From assembly GCA_020846935.1 (NCBI GenBank), contig JADLCY010000001.1, forward strand, positions 496,001 through 560,000: DNA of 64,000 nucleotides, given 5' to 3'. The notes below the pieces were generated by a model that was given only the letters and a program-made list of their open reading frames with translations, had not been told where the DNA came from and searched no databases. This stretch comes from Gemmatimonadaceae bacterium (GTDB lineage: Bacteria; Gemmatimonadota; Gemmatimonadetes; Gemmatimonadales; Gemmatimonadaceae). Each line of letters starts with the position of its first letter. Positions within the stretch are counted from its first letter, which is position 1. The position numbers were made by a program, and so were the translations under genes. This document shows positions 23,412-62,049 of the stretch, piece by piece.

Positions 23412-23549
23412 GACGACCGCGGGGACGAGCGAGTGAAGGGTGACCGTACACAGTTTCGGTTGCCCTGGGGTCAGGCTTGAATGGGGGCGGGCGTTAACGG
23501 GCCGCGCCTGAGCCACGTCCAATCCACCGCGTTCAGCCTCCGGTGCCCC

Positions 23550-25481
23550 ATGACGTCACGCCATGTGTTGTTGCTCTCGTTTCCCCTGCTCCTGGGCGTT
23601 GGCGCCACGGGCGCGCTTGTGAGCGCCGGGACCGACGCGCGCGCCGAGCGTGCCTGGCGACCGACAGCAGTCCCGGGCGCGACCGCGGAGCGAGAATTGG
23701 CACCACGTGACCAGGCCCTTCACGTCCTCAACAGGCTGGCTTTCGGGCCGCGCCCGGGCGATGTGGACGCGGTGCTTCGCCTGGGCGTGGATCGGTGGAT
23801 TGAACAGCAACTCGCGCCCGAGCGCATTCGCGACAGGAGCGTGGATGCTGTGCTATCGGCATATCCACACCTGGCAAAGGATGCGGGTGAGCTACGCGCG
23901 GAGTTTCCGCCGGCTGCCGCGCTGCGCCGGGCCGCCGAGGGTCGCATGACGGCGGCCGACAGCCAGGCCCTGCGACGTCAGGCACAGGAAGGTCGCCGAT
24001 TCGTCGCCGAGCTCACCTCGGCCCGCGTGGCGCGAGCCGTGGTGTCGGAGCGACAACTGGCGGAAGTGATGACCGACTTCTGGCTCAACCATTTCAGTGT
24101 CTTTGTCGGGAAGAACGCCCGGATGCGCTACTACCTCCCCACGTACGAGCGGGAAACGATTCGGCCGCACGTGCTCGGGAAGTTCCGCGACCTGCTTGGC
24201 GCCGTGGCAAGGAGCCCGGCGATGCTGGTCTACCTCGACAATGCCATCTCGGTGGCGGACAGTACGCGGCCCACGCTGGTGGACCGCGAAGTCGGTGAAC
24301 GTCGCCTCCGCCGTGCGCGTGCGGCGCTCAACCGCCGGCCCAACGCACGCGCCGATTCAGCGCGGCTCGAACAGCTGGTGCAGCGACGGCCACGTGGCCT
24401 CAACGAGAACTACGCGCGCGAACTGCTCGAACTGCACACGCTGGGCGTGGACGGCGGCTACACCCAGGACGATGTGATCAACGTCGCCCGCGTGCTCACC
24501 GGCTGGACGGTGCGCCTGGGCGCGCGCGACGACGGCGGCTTTCAGTTCAACCCCGCGGCGCACGATGCCGGGGAGAAGCGCATCCTCGGGCGCGTGTTCC
24601 GCGCCGGTCGCGGCGAAGACGAGGGCGATGCGGTGCTGGACCTGCTCGCCCGCCATCCGTCGACCGCGCGGCATATTGCGACAAAGCTTGCCGTGCGCCT
24701 GGTGTCCGACGATCCGCCGGACGATCTGATCGATCGCGCCACCGAGGTGTTTCTCCACACGGACGGCGACATTCGCGAGGTGGTCCGCGCCATCGTGACC
24801 TCGCCCGAGTTCTTCTCGAAGGCCGCCTGGCGGGCCAAGGTGAAGTCACCGTTCGAGGTGGTCGTGAGCGCCGCGCGCGCCCTTGGCGGCACAGCGGACA
24901 CGACGGCATTCAGCGCAGCACTCGTCGCGCGGCTGGGTCAGCCCATCTACGGACACCAGGCGCCGGACGGTTGGCCGGAGACGGGTGAGGAGTGGATGAA
25001 CACGGGGGCGATCCTCAACCGCATCAACTTCGGTATGGCCGTGGCGGCCAATCGTGTTCCGGGCGCGCGGCTCGACGCGTGGCCGCCGTATGCCGCGTTG
25101 CGCGAGGCGGACCGTGCGGCACAGGTGGACGCGGTGATCGCCGCGTTCCTTGGCGGGCAGACGTCGACGGAGACGCGCGCGATCCTGGTGAACGGGGCGA
25201 ACCCGATGCTTGGCGCATCCGTTCGCGATTCATTCGCGGTGGATGTGGATGGGGAAATCGCGATGAGCGAGCGCGGAGTCGCGAGGCGCCGCCGAGCAGG
25301 GGCGCTGGGGCCCCCCCCCGATGGTCAAGGTAACATGAACGATCGCGAACCCCGCAACCCGGATGTCTCCGGTCGTACCAATCCATTGCGTGGAAATCCG
25401 CTGGGTCCGCCCCGCGCCCTCTCCGGGCTCGACCAGCTCATCGGCCTCGCGCTCGGTGCGCCCGAGTTCCAGCGCCGTTAG
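23550..25481 (+). CDS. DUF1800 family exported protein
   Basis: A 643-residue protein with an N-terminal signal peptide (MTSRHVLLLSFPLLLGVGAT). The DUF1800 core is seen in ALHVLNRLAFGPRPGDV (about 57-73), the central MTDFWLNHFSVF (about 172-183) and LNENYARELLELHTLGVDGG (about 282-301), then ARVLTGW. The product has no known activity. DUF1800 genes are regularly paired with DUF1501 genes, as here (29 bp gap), and the pair is thought to act in the periplasm or at the surface. A C9 run near the end of the gene (25311-25319) is a possible slippage site. Confidence 0.92.
   Translation: MTSRHVLLLSFPLLLGVGATGALVSAGTDARAERAWRPTAVPGATAERELAPRDQALHVLNRLAFGPRPGDVDAVLRLGVDRWIEQQLAPERIRDRSVDAVLSAYPHLAKDAGELRAEFPPAAALRRAAEGRMTAADSQALRRQAQEGRRFVAELTSARVARAVVSERQLAEVMTDFWLNHFSVFVGKNARMRYYLPTYERETIRPHVLGKFRDLLGAVARSPAMLVYLDNAISVADSTRPTLVDREVGERRLRRARAALNRRPNARADSARLEQLVQRRPRGLNENYARELLELHTLGVDGGYTQDDVINVARVLTGWTVRLGARDDGGFQFNPAAHDAGEKRILGRVFRAGRGEDEGDAVLDLLARHPSTARHIATKLAVRLVSDDPPDDLIDRATEVFLHTDGDIREVVRAIVTSPEFFSKAAWRAKVKSPFEVVVSAARALGGTADTTAFSAALVARLGQPIYGHQAPDGWPETGEEWMNTGAILNRINFGMAVAANRVPGARLDAWPPYAALREADRAAQVDAVIAAFLGGQTSTETRAILVNGANPMLGASVRDSFAVDVDGEIAMSERGVARRRRAGALGPPPDGQGNMNDREPRNPDVSGRTNPLRGNPLGPPRALSGLDQLIGLALGAPEFQRR
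25311..25319 (+). repeat. C9 homopolymer inside the DUF1800 gene
   Basis: Nine consecutive C, directly preceded by GGGG, encode Gly-Pro-Pro-Pro near the 3' end of the gene. Loss or gain of one C would truncate or change the last 55 or so residues. Confidence 0.85.
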
Positions 25482-25510
25482 GCACTCCCGACTTCGACCC
25501 CGACCGTCAT

Positions 25511-26773
25511 ATGCAGCGCCGAGTCTTTGTGAAATCCGGAGCCCTCGCCCTCGTCACCATGGGGCTGAGCCCGTCGTTCCTCCGTCGCAGCGCCTTTGCC
25601 CTCGAGCTCCCCCGCACCACCAGGGGCAAGGTGCTCGTGTGCCTGTTCCAGCGCGGGGCGGCGGATGCGCTCAGCATGGTCGTCCCGCACGGCGAGTCCT
25701 CGTACTACACGCTTCGACCGGCCATCGCCATTCCGCGTCCGCGCGCCGGCGACGCGGCCTCCGCCATCGACCTCGATGGGTTCTTTGGCCTGCACCCGGC
25801 ACTCGCGCCGTTCCGACCCCTCTACCAGGACGGGATGCTCGCGCCCATCCACGCGGTCGGCAGTCCGAGCGCGACGCGCTCGCACTTCGACGCGCAGGAC
25901 TACATGGAGAGCGGCACGCCTGACCTCAAGGCTACGCGGGACGGCTGGCTCAACCGCTACCTCGCGGTGAGCGGCACGTGTGAAGCCTGCACCCCCGAGC
26001 CGACGCCGTTCCGCGCCGTGTCGATGACCGCACAGACCCCGCGCATCCTCGACGGCGGGGCGCCGGCGGTGGCCATGGCCTCGTTAGGCGACTTCACCGT
26101 GCGCGCCAGCTCGACATCCGCCGATCGTCTCGAGGCCCTCTATCGCACCGGCACGGCCGACCTCGTGCACGCCTCGGGCACCGAGATGTTCGAGGCCGTG
26201 AAACTCCTGCGCAGCGCGGACCCGCAGCGCTACCAACCGGGCAACGGCGCGGAGTATCCGCGATCGCCGTTCGGCCAGCGCCTGCTGGAGATCGCCCAGC
26301 TCATCAAGGCTGGCGTCGGTCTCGAGGTCGCATTCGCCGACGTCGGCGGATGGGACACGCACGTCAACCAGGGGGCGGGGACCGGCCAGCTCGCGACGCG
26401 ACTGCGAGACTTTGCCACGTCGATCGCCGCATTCGTCACCGACCTCGGCCCACGCATGGATGACGTCGTCATCCTGACGATGTCGGAGTTCGGGCGCATG
26501 GCGTCGCAGAACGGCAGCGGTGGCACCGACCATGGCCACGCCGGCGCGATGTTCGTCATTGGGGCCAGGATCAACGGTGGCCGGGTGCATGGCACGTGGC
26601 CGGGACTCGCTCGCGAACAACTCTACGAAGGACGCGACCTCGCCCTCACCACCGACTTCCGCGCCGTCTTCTCCGAAGTGCTTGGCCGGCACCTCGGCGC
26701 CACGGCGCTCGACCGGGTGTTCCCGGGATACCCCGGGAACCAGCGCGACTGGCGCGGCGTGCTCTCGGGTTAA
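25511..26773 (+). CDS. DUF1501 family exported protein
   Basis: A 420-residue protein whose N-terminus MQRRVFVKSGALALVTMG has the twin-arginine look of DUF1501 signal sequences, suggesting Tat export in a folded state. The core shows LVCLFQRGAADALSMVVPHG, then SATRSHFDAQDYMESGTP, VGGWDTHVNQG and the conserved TMSEFGR followed by GTDHGHAG, a sulfatase/alkaline-phosphatase-like metal layout. It follows the DUF1800 gene in an operon. Its stop overlaps the convergent regulator gene stop by 4 bp (26770-26773). Confidence 0.93.
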   Translation: MQRRVFVKSGALALVTMGLSPSFLRRSAFALELPRTTRGKVLVCLFQRGAADALSMVVPHGESSYYTLRPAIAIPRPRAGDAASAIDLDGFFGLHPALAPFRPLYQDGMLAPIHAVGSPSATRSHFDAQDYMESGTPDLKATRDGWLNRYLAVSGTCEACTPEPTPFRAVSMTAQTPRILDGGAPAVAMASLGDFTVRASSTSADRLEALYRTGTADLVHASGTEMFEAVKLLRSADPQRYQPGNGAEYPRSPFGQRLLEIAQLIKAGVGLEVAFADVGGWDTHVNQGAGTGQLATRLRDFATSIAAFVTDLGPRMDDVVILTMSEFGRMASQNGSGGTDHGHAGAMFVIGARINGGRVHGTWPGLAREQLYEGRDLALTTDFRAVFSEVLGRHLGATALDRVFPGYPGNQRDWRGVLSG

Positions 26774-29685
26774 CCGGGCCCTCGACCCTCGATGCGCTGC
26801 AGCGTCGACAGCACCTCGGCGCGATCCACCATGCCTGCAGAGTCCGGCGCGACGCGCAGCGCGAGGTACTGGCGCAGCGCATTCGCCGCACCAGCTGAAT
26901 CTTCCAGCCGCTCGGCGATGCGCGCTTCTGTACGAAGGTACGTACTGAGGTAGCGCGGCCAACCGCGCGCAACCGAACGGCGCCGCACGAGCGCATGCGC
27001 TCGCGTCAGCTCACCACGCTGCTCGCGCACCAGCGCCAGCGCCAGCGTTCCGTATTGCCGCAGGTCACCCGCCGTCGGTCCCGACAACACGAGCTGTTCG
27101 GCGCGTGCCAACACGTCCGACGCGCCCGCCCGCCCCTGCAACGCGGTGGCCAGGGCATCGAGGACCAGACCGCAGGCCACGCCGCCCGGAGCCACCGCCT
27201 CGTCGGGTGGGGCGACCCCGTCCGCGGACAACACGCGCACCGTCGCCGCAACGGTCGAGTAGTCACCGTGCCACACCCGCCACTGCTCGAGCACGCACAG
27301 GTCGGCCATCGCGCTCGAGCGCGCAACGGTGGATTCGCCGCGTGGGCCAACGCGTGCCGTTAGCCGTTCGACGGCGTCCACCGCCGCCGAGCTGTCCCCG
27401 CTCCCATACAGCGCGTCCAGTATGCGGAGCCGCAGGTGTGCGCCGCTGCTCTCCAGGTCCGCAAGCCGTCGTGTGGCAAGCAGCGCCCGCGACGGACTGC
27501 CGGCATTCAATGCGTAGGCATGTTCGGCGAGCACGACGTCGATCCGCGCGCCGGTGTTCTGCGTCCGCAGGCCGCGCGTGCGCAGCGCCTCGACTCCGTC
27601 GTCGAGGTATTCGCCCTCGGCCAGCGCCGACATCGCGATGCGTCGCAGGGCGTCGTCCGAAGCCTCTCCAAAGCCCGCGCGCGCCGCCCGAAGGGCCTCA
27701 CCATCGCGCGCCCGAACCGCGCGCCGCCACCGCAACCACGGCGCGAACTCACCCCCCGCCTGTTCGTCGACCACGCGCACCGCGCCGGCTCGACCCTGCA
27801 CCAGGCCTGCCAGCGCGATCCGTGCAGCGACGTGCGTCGAGTCGAGCGCGAGGGCCCGCGTGAACGCCTCGGCGGCGCCGGCCTCGGCATCGCGAAGGCC
27901 CGCGAGCCGCCCGTCGACCAGCAGGCGCCGGCCGAGGTCCGCCCAGAGTTCGGGGCGATCTCCGGTGCGCGCGACGCGCTCCCACGCCGCAAAGTGCTCC
28001 TCGCTCGTCGAAGGCCGCGGCGAATGCTGACCCTGCAACGCCACGAGCTGCTGCTGCTCGATCACGGGAAGCCGGTCCCGCCAGCGCTCGGCCACCTCGA
28101 GCCCCCGCGCGCGCTGCGGAAGGTCCTCGAGCCAGTCCGATGCGAGCGCGAGCCCGACGGCCGATGCCGTGAGCGCGGAGTCCAGGGCGAGCGCGCGTGC
28201 GTACGCGGCCTGCGCCTGCCGGAAGTCGGCGCGCAGGTAGGCGGAACGCCCCTGCAGGAACGCACGCAGCGCCCGCGGGTCGACATCGGGCGCATCCTGC
28301 ACGGCTTCGCCTGCGCCCGCGGCCGTGGCCACGAGGAGCGTGGCGAGACGATCCACGAGACGGGGCAGCGAGTCGAGCGCACCACTCGCCGTGACCGCCG
28401 CGATCGGTCGCCGAGTGGGAACCTCGATGAGCGCGGCGCGAATCACCACCTGCCGCGCGTTCCCGACCAGCGTGCCCGTGACCACCTGGCGCGCGCCTAA
28501 CGACTCGGCGCGTTCCAGCACCGTGTCGGCCGCCGGGGCCTGACGACCACCGAACGCGGCGTCCCACCACGCGTGCACCGTCTCGGGGTCCACGAGCGCG
28601 ACCGTGTCGCGCGCCGCCAGCGCCACGCTCAGCAGGTCGACCATACCTCCAGGGAGGAACGACAGGTCCCCGGACAGACTCGTCGCGCGGAACGGCAGGA
28701 TGGCCGTTGCCGCCGGGAGCGGCGCCGCCTCCCGACGCGCACGGCCCAGCTGGGCGATGGCGAGGAGCGCCACCACCACCGCCGCCGACGTCAGCGCGCC
28801 CTGCCTCACGAGCAGTCGCCAGCGGCGTGAGCGACGACGCCACCACGGCACCACTCCGCGCGTCCACGCGACCGCCTGTCCGAACGCACGCGCTGCGCCG
28901 GCGCGGAGGCGGAACACCGCACTGGCACTCGCCTCCTCCGCCGAGCCCGCATCGCTGATCACCACGGGCCGACGGCGGGATTCGGCGAGCAGCTCGTGCG
29001 CGACCAGTTCCACCCGCGGATCCGGATCGAGATCGAGCTCCTGCCTGACCAACTCTCCATAAACGCGTGCGTGCTGCACGCCGGCCGGGGCGTCGCCCGC
29101 AAGCGCGAGCGCGCGCATCAGTGCAATCGCCGCCGTGGCATCGAGCGGGTCGAGCGCCGCACGCCGCCGCAGGACGTGGACGGCGCCAACATGATCCTCG
29201 GCGCCATGGCGCGCGCGTGCCTGCGCATCAAGGAAGGCCGCCATGCGCTGCGACCAGAGCGAACGCTGCTCCTCGATCCAGCGCTCCAGCTCCGGCGCGC
29301 CGGGCACCATGAAGCCATCGAGCAGGGGACCCCGATAGCGGGCCAACGCCGTGTCGGCGTCGCCGGCAGCAACTGCCTGTTCGACCGCGGACACATCCGT
29401 CGCGAACCGCTCGGGATTCAGAGCGAGATGAGCGGTCCCGACAATGGCGTCGTCGAACGCAAGAAGTCGCCGTATCGCGTAGAGCGACTGGGTGAGCGCA
29501 TGTCGGCTACGCTCGGGATCGGCATCGGACCAGAGCAAGTGGAGCAGACGCTCCCGCGCGATGCCGCGCTGGCCTTGCACGGCGAGCACGGCCAGGATCG
29601 CGGCCAGCCGGCGCGGCAGAGCGGCACCAGCCGGTGAACCGGCCGCGTCTGTCGAGAATCCGCCAAATACCGATACAGAAATCAT
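26770..29685 (-). CDS. SARP/BTAD-type regulator with membrane helix, TolB-like domain and TPRs
   Basis: A 971-residue protein. The ATG at 29685 is chosen over the GTG at 29691 because AGGCGGTG, close to an ideal ribosome site, ends 3 nt upstream. The N-terminus (about 1-90) is a winged-helix domain of the SARP type (LLHLLWSDADPERSRHALTQ). A BTAD helical domain follows (about 95-240). A single hydrophobic segment lies near 298-316, then a TolB/FlgO-like domain (AILPFRATSLSGDLSFLPGG, about 330-470), then TPR-like helices to the end. So DNA binding is cytosolic and the rest probably periplasmic. It is divergent from a HAD/glycosyltransferase pair, with phased heptamers between. Confidence 0.87.
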   Translation of the reverse strand: MISVSVFGGFSTDAAGSPAGAALPRRLAAILAVLAVQGQRGIARERLLHLLWSDADPERSRHALTQSLYAIRRLLAFDDAIVGTAHLALNPERFATDVSAVEQAVAAGDADTALARYRGPLLDGFMVPGAPELERWIEEQRSLWSQRMAAFLDAQARARHGAEDHVGAVHVLRRRAALDPLDATAAIALMRALALAGDAPAGVQHARVYGELVRQELDLDPDPRVELVAHELLAESRRRPVVISDAGSAEEASASAVFRLRAGAARAFGQAVAWTRGVVPWWRRRSRRWRLLVRQGALTSAAVVVALLAIAQLGRARREAAPLPAATAILPFRATSLSGDLSFLPGGMVDLLSVALAARDTVALVDPETVHAWWDAAFGGRQAPAADTVLERAESLGARQVVTGTLVGNARQVVIRAALIEVPTRRPIAAVTASGALDSLPRLVDRLATLLVATAAGAGEAVQDAPDVDPRALRAFLQGRSAYLRADFRQAQAAYARALALDSALTASAVGLALASDWLEDLPQRARGLEVAERWRDRLPVIEQQQLVALQGQHSPRPSTSEEHFAAWERVARTGDRPELWADLGRRLLVDGRLAGLRDAEAGAAEAFTRALALDSTHVAARIALAGLVQGRAGAVRVVDEQAGGEFAPWLRWRRAVRARDGEALRAARAGFGEASDDALRRIAMSALAEGEYLDDGVEALRTRGLRTQNTGARIDVVLAEHAYALNAGSPSRALLATRRLADLESSGAHLRLRILDALYGSGDSSAAVDAVERLTARVGPRGESTVARSSAMADLCVLEQWRVWHGDYSTVAATVRVLSADGVAPPDEAVAPGGVACGLVLDALATALQGRAGASDVLARAEQLVLSGPTAGDLRQYGTLALALVREQRGELTRAHALVRRRSVARGWPRYLSTYLRTEARIAERLEDSAGAANALRQYLALRVAPDSAGMVDRAEVLSTLQRIEGRGPG

Positions 29686-29692
29686 TTGCACC

Positions 29693-29721
29693 GCCTGATG
29701 ATCGCCTGATTCCTGCCTGAT
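29693..29721. promoter_or_regulatory. Three GCCTGAT heptamers phased at 11 bp: candidate SARP operator
   Basis: GCCTGAT occurs perfectly at 29693-29699, 29704-29710 and 29715-29721, an exact 11-bp period with 4-bp spacers. SARP regulators are known to bind direct heptamer repeats with 11-bp spacing on one DNA face. The array lies between the SARP-type gene (start 29685, minus) and the HAD phosphatase gene (29769, plus). The first heptamer overlaps the regulator's ribosome site. Autoregulation and control of the divergent pair are inferred. Confidence 0.65.
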
Positions 29722-29768
29722 ACCCCACGCCGATCTTCCGTTCGTCCGACCGACCTCCCGCTCCCGAG

Positions 29769-30638
29769 ATGATGACCGAGTCCCTGTTTCCGAGCGCCTG
29801 TCAGCGCGTCGTGTTCTCCGATGTGGACGGTACCCTTCTGGATCGTGCTGGGCACTATCCCGCCTGCTGGCCGTCCGTCCGGCAATCGTTGGGCGATGCC
29901 ATGTTCGTGCTGACGTCGAGCCGGACCGTGGAGGAGCTGCTCGATGTGCAGCAGGCCCTGGGCATCGCCGGGCCGTTCATTGCGGAGAACGGCGCGATGT
30001 TGGTGCTGACGCACGAGTGGCTGGACCAGCCCCTTGGCACCGTGGTGACCGTTGGAGAACGATTGCTCCGGCTCGTGCCCATCGGAACCCCCAGCACGCA
30101 ACTCTCGGCGATCGTGCGCGGAGCGGCCTCGACCTGTGGTGTGACCATTGACGTGCAGCGTGGCATCACGACGGCAGACCTGCCGCCCACGTCGGTCGGC
30201 CGGGCGCCCTCGGTCACCAGCCACGCGCTCGCGCGGGCCCACTCCATCCTCCTGCGGATCAGCGGGACGACGGAGCAGCGCCTGCGCTTCTTCTCTACGC
30301 TCGCCCGCACCGGCCTGACGGTCTCGCACGGTGGACGCTGGCACGTCGTGCAAGGCGGATCGAGCAAGGGCATCGCCGTGCGCACCCTGCTGCAGCTCAT
30401 CCGTCGGCGCGCCTCGCACGAGCTGTGCGTGATCGGCGTCGGCGATGCGCAGAACGACCGCTCGCTGCTCGAAGCCGTGGATCATCGCTTTGTGATGCGT
30501 GGTCCCGACGGAACCGTCGACGCGGCGCTGGCCGATGTGCCGGGCGCCCACGTTCCGGAAACTTCCGGCATCGAAGCCTGGAGCGAGATCGTCGACCTGA
30601 TGCACCCTGCAACCCTGGAGGGCGCCGCCGATGCCTGA
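29769..30638 (+). CDS. HAD-IIB phosphatase, mannosyl-3-phosphoglycerate phosphatase-like
   Basis: A 289-residue HAD hydrolase. Motif I is FSDVDGTLLD (nucleophile D18, acid D20). Motif II is VLTSSRT. A type IIB cap follows. Motif III/IV is seen in GGSSKGIAVRTLL (lysine) and VIGVGDAQNDRSLLEAVD. The ENGA segment after motif II and overall length match the mannosyl-3-phosphoglycerate phosphatase group, which dephosphorylates a precursor of the compatible solute mannosylglycerate. The next gene, a glycosyltransferase, overlaps by 8 bp. Substrate is inferred; other sugar-phosphates are possible. Confidence 0.8.
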   Translation: MMTESLFPSACQRVVFSDVDGTLLDRAGHYPACWPSVRQSLGDAMFVLTSSRTVEELLDVQQALGIAGPFIAENGAMLVLTHEWLDQPLGTVVTVGERLLRLVPIGTPSTQLSAIVRGAASTCGVTIDVQRGITTADLPPTSVGRAPSVTSHALARAHSILLRISGTTEQRLRFFSTLARTGLTVSHGGRWHVVQGGSSKGIAVRTLLQLIRRRASHELCVIGVGDAQNDRSLLEAVDHRFVMRGPDGTVDAALADVPGAHVPETSGIEAWSEIVDLMHPATLEGAADA

Positions 30639-31707
30639 GCGACGCTGGACCATTTCCGTCCTCACGATCCCGAGCCGCGAGACGTACGTGCAGGCGCTGG
30701 TGGAGTCACTCGCCGCCGCGCGGGTGACGCGCCACGCGGATGTGAGTATCGTCTACAACTGGGACTCGCCGGAACCCCCGTCGACAATCGAGCAGCGGCT
30801 GCGCCGCGCCTGCCGCGGGGTGCCGATCGAGGTCTCGTTCAACACCACCAAACCGACGATTGCCGCTGGCCGGCAGCAGCAGCTGAACGCCTGCAAGACG
30901 CCGCTCATCTGCTTCATCGACGACGACGTCACCGTGCACGGTGACCTCGTCGCCACGATGGAGCGCGGGCTCCAGGCGCAGCCCCTGGGGATCGTGGGCG
31001 TGCCGTCCTACGTCGAGGGAACGCCCGAGCTGTTCAAGCCGAGGGAGAGCACGCCCTACGTGAACCACGATGGCGTGCGCTTCCAGTCCGTGCAGGGCAT
31101 GCTCGTGGGCGGCTACCGGAGACTCTTCATCGACGTCGGTGGTTTCAACCAGCGTCGTCGGTACTGGGGCGAGTGGACCGAACTGAACCTGCGCCTGTGG
31201 CGCTCGGGATTCCCGACGGGCTACGTGATGGACGGTGCGTACCTGCGCCATTGGCACGACGCGCCCGAATCACCCACGCGGAATCGGTCCGGACGCGAGG
31301 TGGACGTGTTGTGGGGACTGATGTGCACCGCCCTCGAGTACGACGCCGTGGACATCACCGAGGAGACGGAGAGCTTCTGGCGACTCGTCGCCGAGCGCTA
31401 CCTGGCATATTCGTTCGGGCCCGACGTCTCCCCTCAGTCGCTGCTGTCGGCGTTCCTGCGATTGGTGCCGCGGCTCCTGGCCGAATGGCCCCGGATCGCC
31501 GAGACGCGTGAGGCGGCCCGTGCGCACCCGTTCCGCTTTGCGCCGTTTGCGCCGTTCACGCCGGACGAAGTGACGGCCGTGATCGCCCACGCGTCGCCGC
31601 GCATCGCGACGTATCGGGCAGAAGCGAGCCGCGTGCCGAGCGTGATGGCCACGGGGCTACGCCGATTCGTGCGACTGCCCTGGCGCGCGCTCCAGCAGCC
31701 GGCGTGA
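30631..31707 (+). CDS. GT-A fold glycosyltransferase (GT2-like)
   Basis: A 358-residue soluble protein beginning WTISVLTIPSRETYVQALVE. The nucleotide-sugar metal site is CFIDDDVTVHGDL near residues 94-106. VGGYRRLFIDVGGFNQ and YWGEWTELNLRLWRSGF near 155-190 match the acceptor-side region of GT2-like enzymes. The ATG overlaps the HAD phosphatase gene by 8 bp with GGAGG upstream, so the two are co-translated. A sugar transfer followed by dephosphorylation, for example for a glycosylglycerate solute, is a reasonable model, but donor and acceptor are not visible in the sequence. Confidence 0.8.
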   Translation: MPERRWTISVLTIPSRETYVQALVESLAAARVTRHADVSIVYNWDSPEPPSTIEQRLRRACRGVPIEVSFNTTKPTIAAGRQQQLNACKTPLICFIDDDVTVHGDLVATMERGLQAQPLGIVGVPSYVEGTPELFKPRESTPYVNHDGVRFQSVQGMLVGGYRRLFIDVGGFNQRRRYWGEWTELNLRLWRSGFPTGYVMDGAYLRHWHDAPESPTRNRSGREVDVLWGLMCTALEYDAVDITEETESFWRLVAERYLAYSFGPDVSPQSLLSAFLRLVPRLLAEWPRIAETREAARAHPFRFAPFAPFTPDEVTAVIAHASPRIATYRAEASRVPSVMATGLRRFVRLPWRALQQPA

Positions 31708-59551: not shown

Positions 59552-60789
59552 TGCATCGGGGCAGCGCGCGCGCGCTGTCAGCGTTCCTCGCGCTCTTCAC
59601 CGGCTCGACGCTCGGCGCGCAGCACGTGCACGCCGAGGGCGACAGCGCCGGGCGGTTCACGATCGGAGCCATGGGCGTCGCGGTGTTCACGCACGTGCGC
59701 CCCGGGGCCCTGGCCCGGAATGTCACCGAGGGCTACCTCACACAGCCGATGCTCATGGCCGGGGCACGCTCGACTGGCGGGCGCCTCCAGGCGTTGCTGA
59801 TGCTCAACGCGGAAGGCGCCACACTCGATCGTGGCGAGATCGGCCCGGGGATCTACGGCGAGGGCTACATCGACCGCCGGCACCCGCACACCTGGCTGCA
59901 TGAGGTGATGGTCGGCGTGCAACAGCCGTTAGGCATGGCGACGGTCGCGCTCTTTGCGGGGAAAGGGTTCGTCCCCTATGGCACCGACGACCCGATGGTG
60001 CGCCCGTTCGTGAAGTTCCCGGTGAACCACCATCATGCGCAGCTGCTGGAGCGCGCGATGCTCACCGCCGCAGCCTCCGCTGGTCCGGCGTCGGTCGAGG
60101 TGGCCCGGTTCAACGGCGACGAACCGGAGTCACCGAGCGACTGGCCCAACCGCGATCGCGGCCTCGACTCGTGGGCCGTACGGGCCACCTGGCTGGCACG
60201 AGGCTCGGTGGAGCTGTCGGCAAGCGCGGCCTCGGTACACTCTCCCGAGTTTGCCAATGGCGACGGCCTGGATCAGCGCAAGGCGGCCGCCTCGGTGCGC
60301 CTCACGCCCACCGGAGGCTTCGTGCGGTATGCCCTGATCGAGGGAGCGCGTACGCGGGAATACAGCGGCGATCGCCGCGTGTTCGAATTCTCATCGCTGC
60401 TCGCTGAAGCGGAGGGAAGGGCCGGCCGACTGGTGCTGGCGGCGCGCATGGAGCGTACGACGCGACCCGAGGAGGAGCGCGCGGGCTCGCCGTACCGGAC
60501 AACACGTCCGCTGCTGGACTTCAACATCCTCGGTCGCACGCAGTGGACCAACGTGACGGTGGCGCTGAGTACCGACCTATGGGGTTCAGCGCTCCTGATG
60601 GGTCGTCCTTTTGTCGAAGCAGGTTATCATGTTCCGCGGGCGACCCGGCGACCAACACCGCTCGATCCGGTGGAATGGTTTGGCGCGGATGCCCTGTGGA
60701 GCTTTTCGGCCGGGATCAGGTTGCACGCCGGTCGCATGCGCTCCCGTGTTGGCCGCTATGGCATCGCGTCGTCGTCACGCCGTCCCTGA
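59548..60789 (+). CDS. Exported His-containing outer-membrane-type protein, unknown family
   Basis: A 413-residue protein with a signal peptide (MMHRGSARALSAFLALFTGS, cleavage near LGA-Q). The mature N-terminus starts QHVHAEGDS and later segments hold clustered histidines (RRHPHTWLHEV, FPVNHHHAQLLE). Alternating hydrophobic strands (RFTIGAMGVAVFTHV, GRLQALLMLNAEG, GMATVALFAGKGFV, ASVRLTPTGGFVRYAL, WTNVTVALSTDLWG) suggest a beta-barrel. It is coupled by ATGA to the cyclophilin gene and precedes the LVIVD lipoprotein and, convergent, two ZIP transporters. A metal-related outer-membrane protein is a reasonable guess; the family is not recognised. Confidence 0.65.
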   Translation: MMHRGSARALSAFLALFTGSTLGAQHVHAEGDSAGRFTIGAMGVAVFTHVRPGALARNVTEGYLTQPMLMAGARSTGGRLQALLMLNAEGATLDRGEIGPGIYGEGYIDRRHPHTWLHEVMVGVQQPLGMATVALFAGKGFVPYGTDDPMVRPFVKFPVNHHHAQLLERAMLTAAASAGPASVEVARFNGDEPESPSDWPNRDRGLDSWAVRATWLARGSVELSASAASVHSPEFANGDGLDQRKAAASVRLTPTGGFVRYALIEGARTREYSGDRRVFEFSSLLAEAEGRAGRLVLAARMERTTRPEEERAGSPYRTTRPLLDFNILGRTQWTNVTVALSTDLWGSALLMGRPFVEAGYHVPRATRRPTPLDPVEWFGADALWSFSAGIRLHAGRMRSRVGRYGIASSSRRP

Positions 60790-60801
60790 TTCCTGCCTGA
60801 T
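60784..60801 (+). promoter_or_regulatory. Second phased heptamer pair (CCCTGAT, GCCTGAT at 11 bp)
   Basis: CCCTGAT (60784-60790) and GCCTGAT (60795-60801) are spaced exactly 11 bp and share the spacer TCCT with the array at 29693-29721; 18 bases (60785-60802) are identical to 29705-29722. The element abuts the ATG at 60802 and the first heptamer contains the stop codon of the preceding gene, so coincidence is possible. Confidence 0.4.
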
Positions 60802-62049
60802 ATGCTCGCCATGCGTTCGGTGCACCCGATGCTGTCCGTCGTCCTGCTTGCGGCCCTGGCCTGTGGGGGCGACCAGCGCGACGACGGCTCGCCAACCGCG
60901 CCACCGGCGCAGAACCCTCCTCCCACGCCCACGCGGCTGACCGTGGCCGGGCGCGGCGTGGTCGACAACCGATATACCTCGGAGCTTTGGGTTCACGGGA
61001 ACTACGGCTACACGGCGACCTGGGGGTCGCGTGTCTCCAGCGGCGCCAGCGCGGCCGGGAACACGATCCACGTGTGGGATGTGCGCGCCGCCGTGCCCGT
61101 CCTGCTCGATTCGGTACGCGTGGCCAATGCGACCACGGTCGGCGACGTCCAGGTGTCGAGCGACGGCCGCTACCTCGTGGCGCCAACCGAACAGTCTCCG
61201 GGGTCGATCGTCGTGTACGACCTGGCGGACCCCGTGCGTCCGCGACTGGTGTCGACGTTCACGTCGCCAAAGATCACGCGTGGTGTCCACACCTGCGAAA
61301 TCCAGACGATCAACGGCCGGCTCACCGCCTTCCTGTCGGTGAATCCGGGGACGAATCACCCGGCGCGCCTCATGATCGTCGACCTCGGCGATCCGGCGGC
61401 CCCGACGGAGGTGTTCACGCTTGATATCACGTCGTCGTTTGTCCACGACGTGTTCGTGCGCGACGGTCTCCTGTTTTCCGCGCAATGGAACAACGGCCTG
61501 GTGATCCACGACATCGGCGGCGGTGGGCGGAGCGGAACGCTCGCCGCACCGGTGGAACTCGGTCGGTTGCGCACCAACGGCGGCAAGGTCCACAACATCT
61601 GGTGGTTCCACGACCCGTCGAGCGGCCGCAAGACCTACGCGTTCGTGGGCGAGGAAGGTCCGGCGTCGCTCTTCACGGCCTCATCGGGCGACATCCACGT
61701 GGTCGACATCTCGTCACCCGCCGCCCCACGTGAAGTCGCGTTCTACACCGTGCCCGGAGCAGGGACCCACAACTTCGCGCTCGACGAAGCCAACGGCTTC
61801 CTGTACGCGGCGTACTACAACGGCGGTGTGCAAGTGCTGGATGTCCGTGGCGACCTCGCGACCTGTACCGCGGCGCAGAAGGCCGCCGATGGCCGGTGCA
61901 ACCTCGGCCTGATGGGCCGAACGAAGTCCATCGGGCTCCTCGACCAGGGCATCCCCGTGTTCGTCTGGGGCGTGCACCTCGCCAACAGGTCGCTCTTCGC
62001 CAGCGACATGATCAACGGCTTCTGGCGCCTCGCCCCGGCGACGCGTTAG
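60802..62049 (+). CDS. LVIVD-repeat beta-propeller lipoprotein
   Basis: A 415-residue lipoprotein (lipobox LLAALAC near residues 15-21). The body consists of LVIVD-type repeats, each a short strand with a V-x-D-(I/L/V) ending: NTIHVWDVRAAVPVLLDSVR, GSIVVYDLADPVRPRLVSTF, RLMIVDLGDPAAPTEVFTLD, NGLVIHDIGGG, GDIHVVDISSPAAPREVAFY, GGVQVLDVRGD. These form a propeller on the cell surface or in the periplasm; the ligand is unknown. No ribosome site lies before the ATG at 60802; ATG 60811 is an alternative. Its stop overlaps that of the ZIP gene by 4 bp. Confidence 0.85.
   Translation: MLAMRSVHPMLSVVLLAALACGGDQRDDGSPTAPPAQNPPPTPTRLTVAGRGVVDNRYTSELWVHGNYGYTATWGSRVSSGASAAGNTIHVWDVRAAVPVLLDSVRVANATTVGDVQVSSDGRYLVAPTEQSPGSIVVYDLADPVRPRLVSTFTSPKITRGVHTCEIQTINGRLTAFLSVNPGTNHPARLMIVDLGDPAAPTEVFTLDITSSFVHDVFVRDGLLFSAQWNNGLVIHDIGGGGRSGTLAAPVELGRLRTNGGKVHNIWWFHDPSSGRKTYAFVGEEGPASLFTASSGDIHVVDISSPAAPREVAFYTVPGAGTHNFALDEANGFLYAAYYNGGVQVLDVRGDLATCTAAQKAADGRCNLGLMGRTKSIGLLDQGIPVFVWGVHLANRSLFASDMINGFWRLAPATR

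Follow-up and report, generated by a model that had tools for sequence, protein, structure and literature searches.

Three perfect GCCTGAT heptamers with an exact 11-bp period lie between a SARP/BTAD-type regulator gene and a divergently oriented HAD hydrolase/glycosyltransferase pair in the 64-kb stretch of DNA analyzed here (the window). In the model that we judge probable from the sequence comparisons below, the membrane-anchored SARP would bind these repeats, activate the divergent gene, and damp transcription of its own gene, with both directions served by a shared bidirectional promoter. Features of the locus and the corresponding repeats in genus relatives are collected in Table 1.

Table 1. 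Features of the window and repeats upstream of the related regulator in three genus relatives
Feature	Coordinates	Strand	Description
SARP/BTAD-type regulator	26770..29685	-	Winged helix, BTAD domain, transmembrane helix, large C-terminal part
Repeat 3	29693..29699	-	ATCAGGC on regulator strand; start-codon-proximal
Repeat 2	29704..29710	-	GCCTGAT without mismatch (ATCAGGC on regulator strand)
Repeat 1	29715..29721	-	GCCTGAT without mismatch; nearest the -10
Predicted shared 7-bp -10 element	29732..29738	both	GATCTT on + (29732-29737, HAD promoter); GAAGAT on - (29738-29733, regulator promoter)
Divergent gene 1: HAD-IIB hydrolase, mannosyl-3-phosphoglycerate phosphatase-like	29769..30638	+	Pfam Hydrolase_3, E 7e-15
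Divergent gene 2: family-2 glycosyltransferase	30631..31707	+	Pfam Glycos_transf_2; synteny in genus
Repeats upstream of regulator, closest relative (L014)			ATCAG x3
Repeats upstream of regulator, L005			TCAG, TCAC, TCAG
Repeats upstream of regulator, L007			TCAC, TCAC, TCAG

The three heptamers reported by the sequence-only reading were all confirmed, with zero mismatches. On the regulator strand they run in the order ATCAGGC, AGGA, ATCAGGC, GATC, ATCAGGC, followed by GGTGCAAATG and the ATG at 29685; the last ATCAGGC stops 7 nt ahead of that codon. GCCTGAT is the sole perfect 7-mer triplet at 11 bp in the window, against a Markov-model expectation of ~0.002 perfect 7-mer triplets per lag per window. 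The window also holds two more perfect 7-mer triplets at other lags (18 and 24), which speak for a chance origin; at the level of the window such an origin is unlikely, but the figure is not decisive, and relatives settle the question. Three genus relatives keep three TCA cores at exactly 11 bp upstream of the related regulator, as the flanks and outer heptamer letters drift, and the phasing also recurs phylum-wide, which leaves chance with a negligible probability. The same intergenic region in relatives had been proposed as a check on the repeats, and it bears out the 11-bp phasing. The proposal that the triplet is the SARP's own operator gains support from the phasing and from the prediction of repeat letters by regulator residues 64 and 68. 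One correction applies: The full heptamer is not conserved. What is conserved is a core of 3–4 bases (TCA, TTA, or TCG on the regulator's strand).

The phasing was examined in upstream regions of 166 SARP/BTAD-type regulator genes, 90 from the family and 76 from across the phylum. Three perfect 4-mers at lag 11 occur in 26 of the 90 family regions vs. 0.4–0.7 expected, and all other lags from 6 to 30 stay at background level. The second set replicated this pattern: 27 of its 76 genes have T(C/T)A three times at lag 11, vs. 0–1 at other lags. Combined, 58 of 166 genes, drawn from 27 genera and four families, show an exact 11-bp spacing of at least three T(C/T)A cores (other spacings, 0–1); a clear T(C/T)A triple was not seen in the other 108 BTAD genes. 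Judged by these counts, the window triplet is one case of a general rule for SARP/BTAD-type regulators of the phylum. This genome has a second regulator with TCAA x3 at 11 bp (L122; G000:C11, about 299376), which shows an apparent fusion to a kinase-like domain and faces a divergent gene for a sigma-70-type factor.

The window operator itself appears to be private. Across the whole 4.5-Mb genome, ATCAGN6ATCAGN6ATCAG with at most two mismatches matches the window locus alone, and a two-heptamer pattern with at most one mismatch matches there and once more, at 60784-60801. The genome scan for phased pairs and triplets suggested by the earlier reading thus returned the window operator plus one further pair, which we rejected as a regulon member: It straddles the upstream gene's stop codon, and the repeat is missing before the ortholog in three genus relatives. 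That site, CCCTGATTCCTGCCTGAT, has 18 exact bases in common with the operator and stands immediately 5′ of a lipoprotein-like gene at 60802; the match is probably due to chance or species-specific. The pair and triplet scans found no wider regulon in the 4.5-Mb genome, and a second convincing copy of the operator seems to be absent from it.

The regulator is predicted to be a SARP-fold, membrane-anchored one-component protein, an assignment made because AfsR and EmbR are its best fold matches and a transmembrane segment follows. Its N-terminal 240 residues (AlphaFold model, pLDDT 96) match solved structures of AfsR in its transcription complex (Z 17.5 over 230 residues) and EmbR (Z 16.8) best, with the next unrelated structure at 13.0; profile matches agree (EmbR, E 1e-9; AfsR, E 3e-9), and the Pfam BTAD match reaches E 4e-9 and 37.3 bits against a cut-off of 22.1. 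The earlier assignment of the gene starting at 29685 to the SARP/BTAD type is upheld by this Pfam match and by the AfsR/EmbR-like fold. An alternative start is a GTG at 29691; numbered from it, the OmpR-type winged helix has its recognition helix at residues 59–77, including H64 and Q68. The transmembrane helix spans about residues 298–316 (hydrophobic 19-mer, KD 1.96), and a hydrophobic segment beyond residue 240 occurs in 31 of the 38 repeat-bearing regulators with enough sequence. The protein probably senses across the membrane. In the closest relative (L014, genome G029) the reading frame ends at 469 residues and is possibly split or frameshifted past the transmembrane helix. The suggestion that the SARP rule extends to a membrane-tethered protein of another phylum gains support from the phylum-wide phasing, the fold, and the transmembrane segment.

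Paralogues appear to differ in their repeat letters in a manner matched by recognition-helix residues 64 and 68. In simple counts made without promoter scoring, TCG x3 precedes 10 of 21 D68 genes and 0 of 118 Q68 genes, whereas T(C/T)A x3 precedes 0 of 21 and 55 of 118, respectively. N64 is present in 6/6 TTA-class genes, and H64 in most TCA genes. A scan of 90 protein columns placed position 68 first for the third base of the core; for the middle base, position 64 is one of the two highest-ranking columns. D68 regulators with TCG instead of TCA repeats include L087, L097, L116, L180, L198, L215, and L219. Part of this covariation reflects shared ancestry, because the tree holds few independent changes at residues 64 and 68; in a tree-controlled pairs test the informative pairs agree and are too few for power. 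Since Q68, D68, and N64 predict the core letters, the reader of the repeats is almost certainly the regulator itself; that each regulator reads its own repeats is supported by these matched letters, which would otherwise be hard to explain. Because the repeats fall within the predicted 5′ leader of the regulator mRNA, they could instead act as RNA, with an RNA-binding protein recognizing TCA at 11-nt steps. But 11 nt corresponds to one turn of DNA, and it is with the regulator's DNA-recognition helix that the repeat letters covary; we rejected this very improbable alternative on the recognition code. The sequence in which residues 64 and 68 line up with the core bases further suggests AfsR polarity on the divergent strand, as judged from the R92 and T88 contacts of AfsR (PMC10936776) and assuming that R74-R75 align with R94-K95.

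The repeats also stand in a fixed relation to a promoter. With upstream regions anchored, alignment-free, on the first repeat only, an A at -17 and a T at -13 from that repeat (xAxxxT, -10-like) occur in 27 of 31 loci of the first set and 22 of 27 of the second, 49/58 in total, against 0–3 at other shifts; several of the nine loci without the fixed -10 look shifted by one base. A TTG at -41, i.e., 17 bp upstream of the -10 hexamer, is found at 11 loci per set (22/58). A blind search of 395 genomes with the composite pattern (TTG, -10, and three TCA) returned 13 matches, 12 of which precede BTAD genes, and 0 control matches. At the thirteenth (L238; G102:C27:948-1013) the element precedes a methyltransferase-like gene and is possibly a moved or orphan operator. 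Both conserved positions, A and T, are present in the window -10, although its promoters match the consensus weakly: The regulator -35 is GCGGGA, without TTG, and G replaces T at -12 on the plus strand.

This -10 could serve both directions. The pattern xAxxxT is identical on either strand, a symmetry read from sequence, and in 72% of loci position -12 of the divergent strand is a T, seen on the regulator strand as a conserved A after the -10; the outer T and A around xAxxxT are both present at 18/58 loci. The start sites predicted for the window, 29744 (+) and 29726 (-), are 18 bp apart, a separation computed from sequence with inferred starts. In E. coli bidirectional promoters, 18 bp is the commonest start-site distance, and an activator of one direction tends to repress the other (PMC12825309). 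Relative to the predicted divergent start, the window repeats occupy -29 to -23, -40 to -34, and -51 to -45, with the T of TGA at -37 and -26. At SARP sites, repeats overlap the -35 of the gene that is activated, and some 8 bp separate the 3′ repeat from its -10. On the divergent strand the window repeats fit this placement, in a register within 1 bp of AfsR, given predicted starts and a strand-symmetric -10.

Two simpler readings each account for part of this geometry. In the first, a pure autorepressor, the repeats would be an operator between the regulator's start site and start codon, and the divergent gene would be affected by chance or not at all. The repeats begin at ~+6 of the regulator's own predicted transcript and cover about +6 to +34, downstream of a promoter with TTG, a 17-bp spacer, and a fixed-distance -10; their distance to the -10 is constant, while that to the start codon varies. 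However, the conserved A after the -10, the near-universal divergent gene, and the AfsR-like polarity and register all fit activation of the divergent gene. We demoted a simple leader operator to a rival because the -10 is strand-symmetric and the neighbours are divergent; autorepression only is a serious rival, albeit an unlikely one. The second reading, plain SARP activation of the divergent operon with an irrelevant regulator-ward promoter, agrees with the AfsR register and with SARPs being activators (PMC10972967). It gives no role to the TTG that 22 of the 58 loci carry at precisely 17 bp from the -10, and the interval from repeats to start codon leaves little space for a further promoter; we consider this reading improbable.

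Activation of the divergent gene combined with damping of the regulator's own transcript is the model we infer. The membrane-anchored SARP would sit side by side on the 11-bp repeats, in an operator located at a bidirectional promoter whose single -10 is strand-symmetric. Once bound, it may touch RNA polymerase aimed at the divergent gene (here HAD and glycosyltransferase), as AfsR does, and so switch that gene on. The same binding would cover the first ~35 bases of the regulator's own transcript and favour the opposite polymerase orientation; own synthesis would be damped because the leader is covered and polymerases compete.

The neighbouring genes are consistent with control of both divergent units, which the sequence-only reading had raised as a possibility. 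The glycosyltransferase gene overlaps the HAD gene (operon), and the pair is divergent from the regulator in 4/4 genus members examined, at 40–44% (HAD) and 62–70% (glycosyltransferase) identity; this conserved divergence and the shared-promoter geometry both lend the proposal weight. The HAD gene matches NCBIfam TIGR01486 at E 1e-33, below the family cut-off, and a protein search of named genomes gave HAD matches only in distant phyla. A DUF1800/DUF1501 gene pair (window 23481-26773) is convergent with the regulator and overlaps its 3′ end by 4 bases. These neighbours do not suggest an actinomycete-type antibiotic cluster. Shortly beyond nearly every repeat-bearing locus with enough flank, a divergent gene starts (called by codon statistics for most loci, except named ones); at L117, which has the repeats, a convincing divergent gene was not found. 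Nine of ten sampled partners have Pfam family matches, and the ten include GDSL, PAP2, sigma factor, TonB-dependent receptor, tyrosinase, Big_2, and PEP-CTERM proteins. A lipobox is present in 12/56 partners by a crude rule and 26/56 by a hydrophobic start, counts taken without a background set.

To our knowledge, nearly all SARP operators described so far belong to actinomycete antibiotic clusters. The sequences compared here show operators with an 11-bp period, promoters of fixed geometry, and a recognition code of two residues across another phylum. Together they predict the target gene and binding letters for dozens of uncharacterised regulators, tie the SARP mechanism to bidirectional promoters, and offer natural regulator–operator pairs for testing how a code diverges following gene duplication. 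The chances seem even that the phylum has a portable one-component module, in which a membrane-anchored SARP is combined with a bidirectional promoter of fixed design and a swappable divergent gene, and in which paralogues have co-evolved private operators partly readable from two recognition-helix residues. If so, operators would be predictable from a genome alone by their 11-bp self-similarity, and many mutually independent regulator–promoter pairs would exist.

Among the titles and passages seen, the literature gave no match, either for operators of SARP/BTAD proteins in organisms of this kind or for a bidirectional promoter of this design served by a SARP. The nearest comparison is AfsR at the afsS promoter of Streptomyces coelicolor, which shares the OmpR-type winged helix and BTAD fold (Z 17.5), the 11-bp direct repeats, the side-by-side binding predicted here from sequence, and, in the divergent reading, a register of the repeats relative to the -10 that agrees to within 1 bp. 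Its repeat is CGTT(T/C)ATCGNN (PMC10972967); of the repeats at -40 to -30 and -29 to -19, the first 8 bp are in contact with AfsR, and the contacted positions comparable to the T of TGA are -36 to -38 and -25 to -27 (PMC10936776). Unlike AfsR, a NOD-TPR protein, the regulator here is membrane-anchored (kinase-fused in some relatives), its site adjoins its own gene in a shared promoter, its repeat letters vary between paralogues, and the partner, whether one gene or an operon, differs widely in function.

Membrane-bound activators such as CadC and ToxR likewise combine a winged helix, a transmembrane helix, and a further C-terminal part. Sequence matches to them are weak (E 0.005–0.012), and, unlike them, the system here has a BTAD domain and 11-bp direct repeats; because BTAD is present, the regulator was not filed under CadC/ToxR. 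The TAACTGA repeats of Beggiatoaceae (MacGregor 2015, PMC4679880) are also direct repeats of a heptamer that stand immediately before start codons, but they are one heptamer genome-wide with a proposed translational role; they might be DNA operators of a winged-helix regulator. In promoter architecture, the closest likeness is to the E. coli acrA/acrR and soxS/soxR bidirectional promoters (Warman et al., PMC12825309), in which one symmetric -10 serves both strands; the 18-bp start separation and the damping of one direction by the activator of the other, both predicted here, are further points in common. Unlike in those promoters, the regulator encoded on one side is here the predicted activator and belongs to the SARP class, and the module recurs across a phylum.
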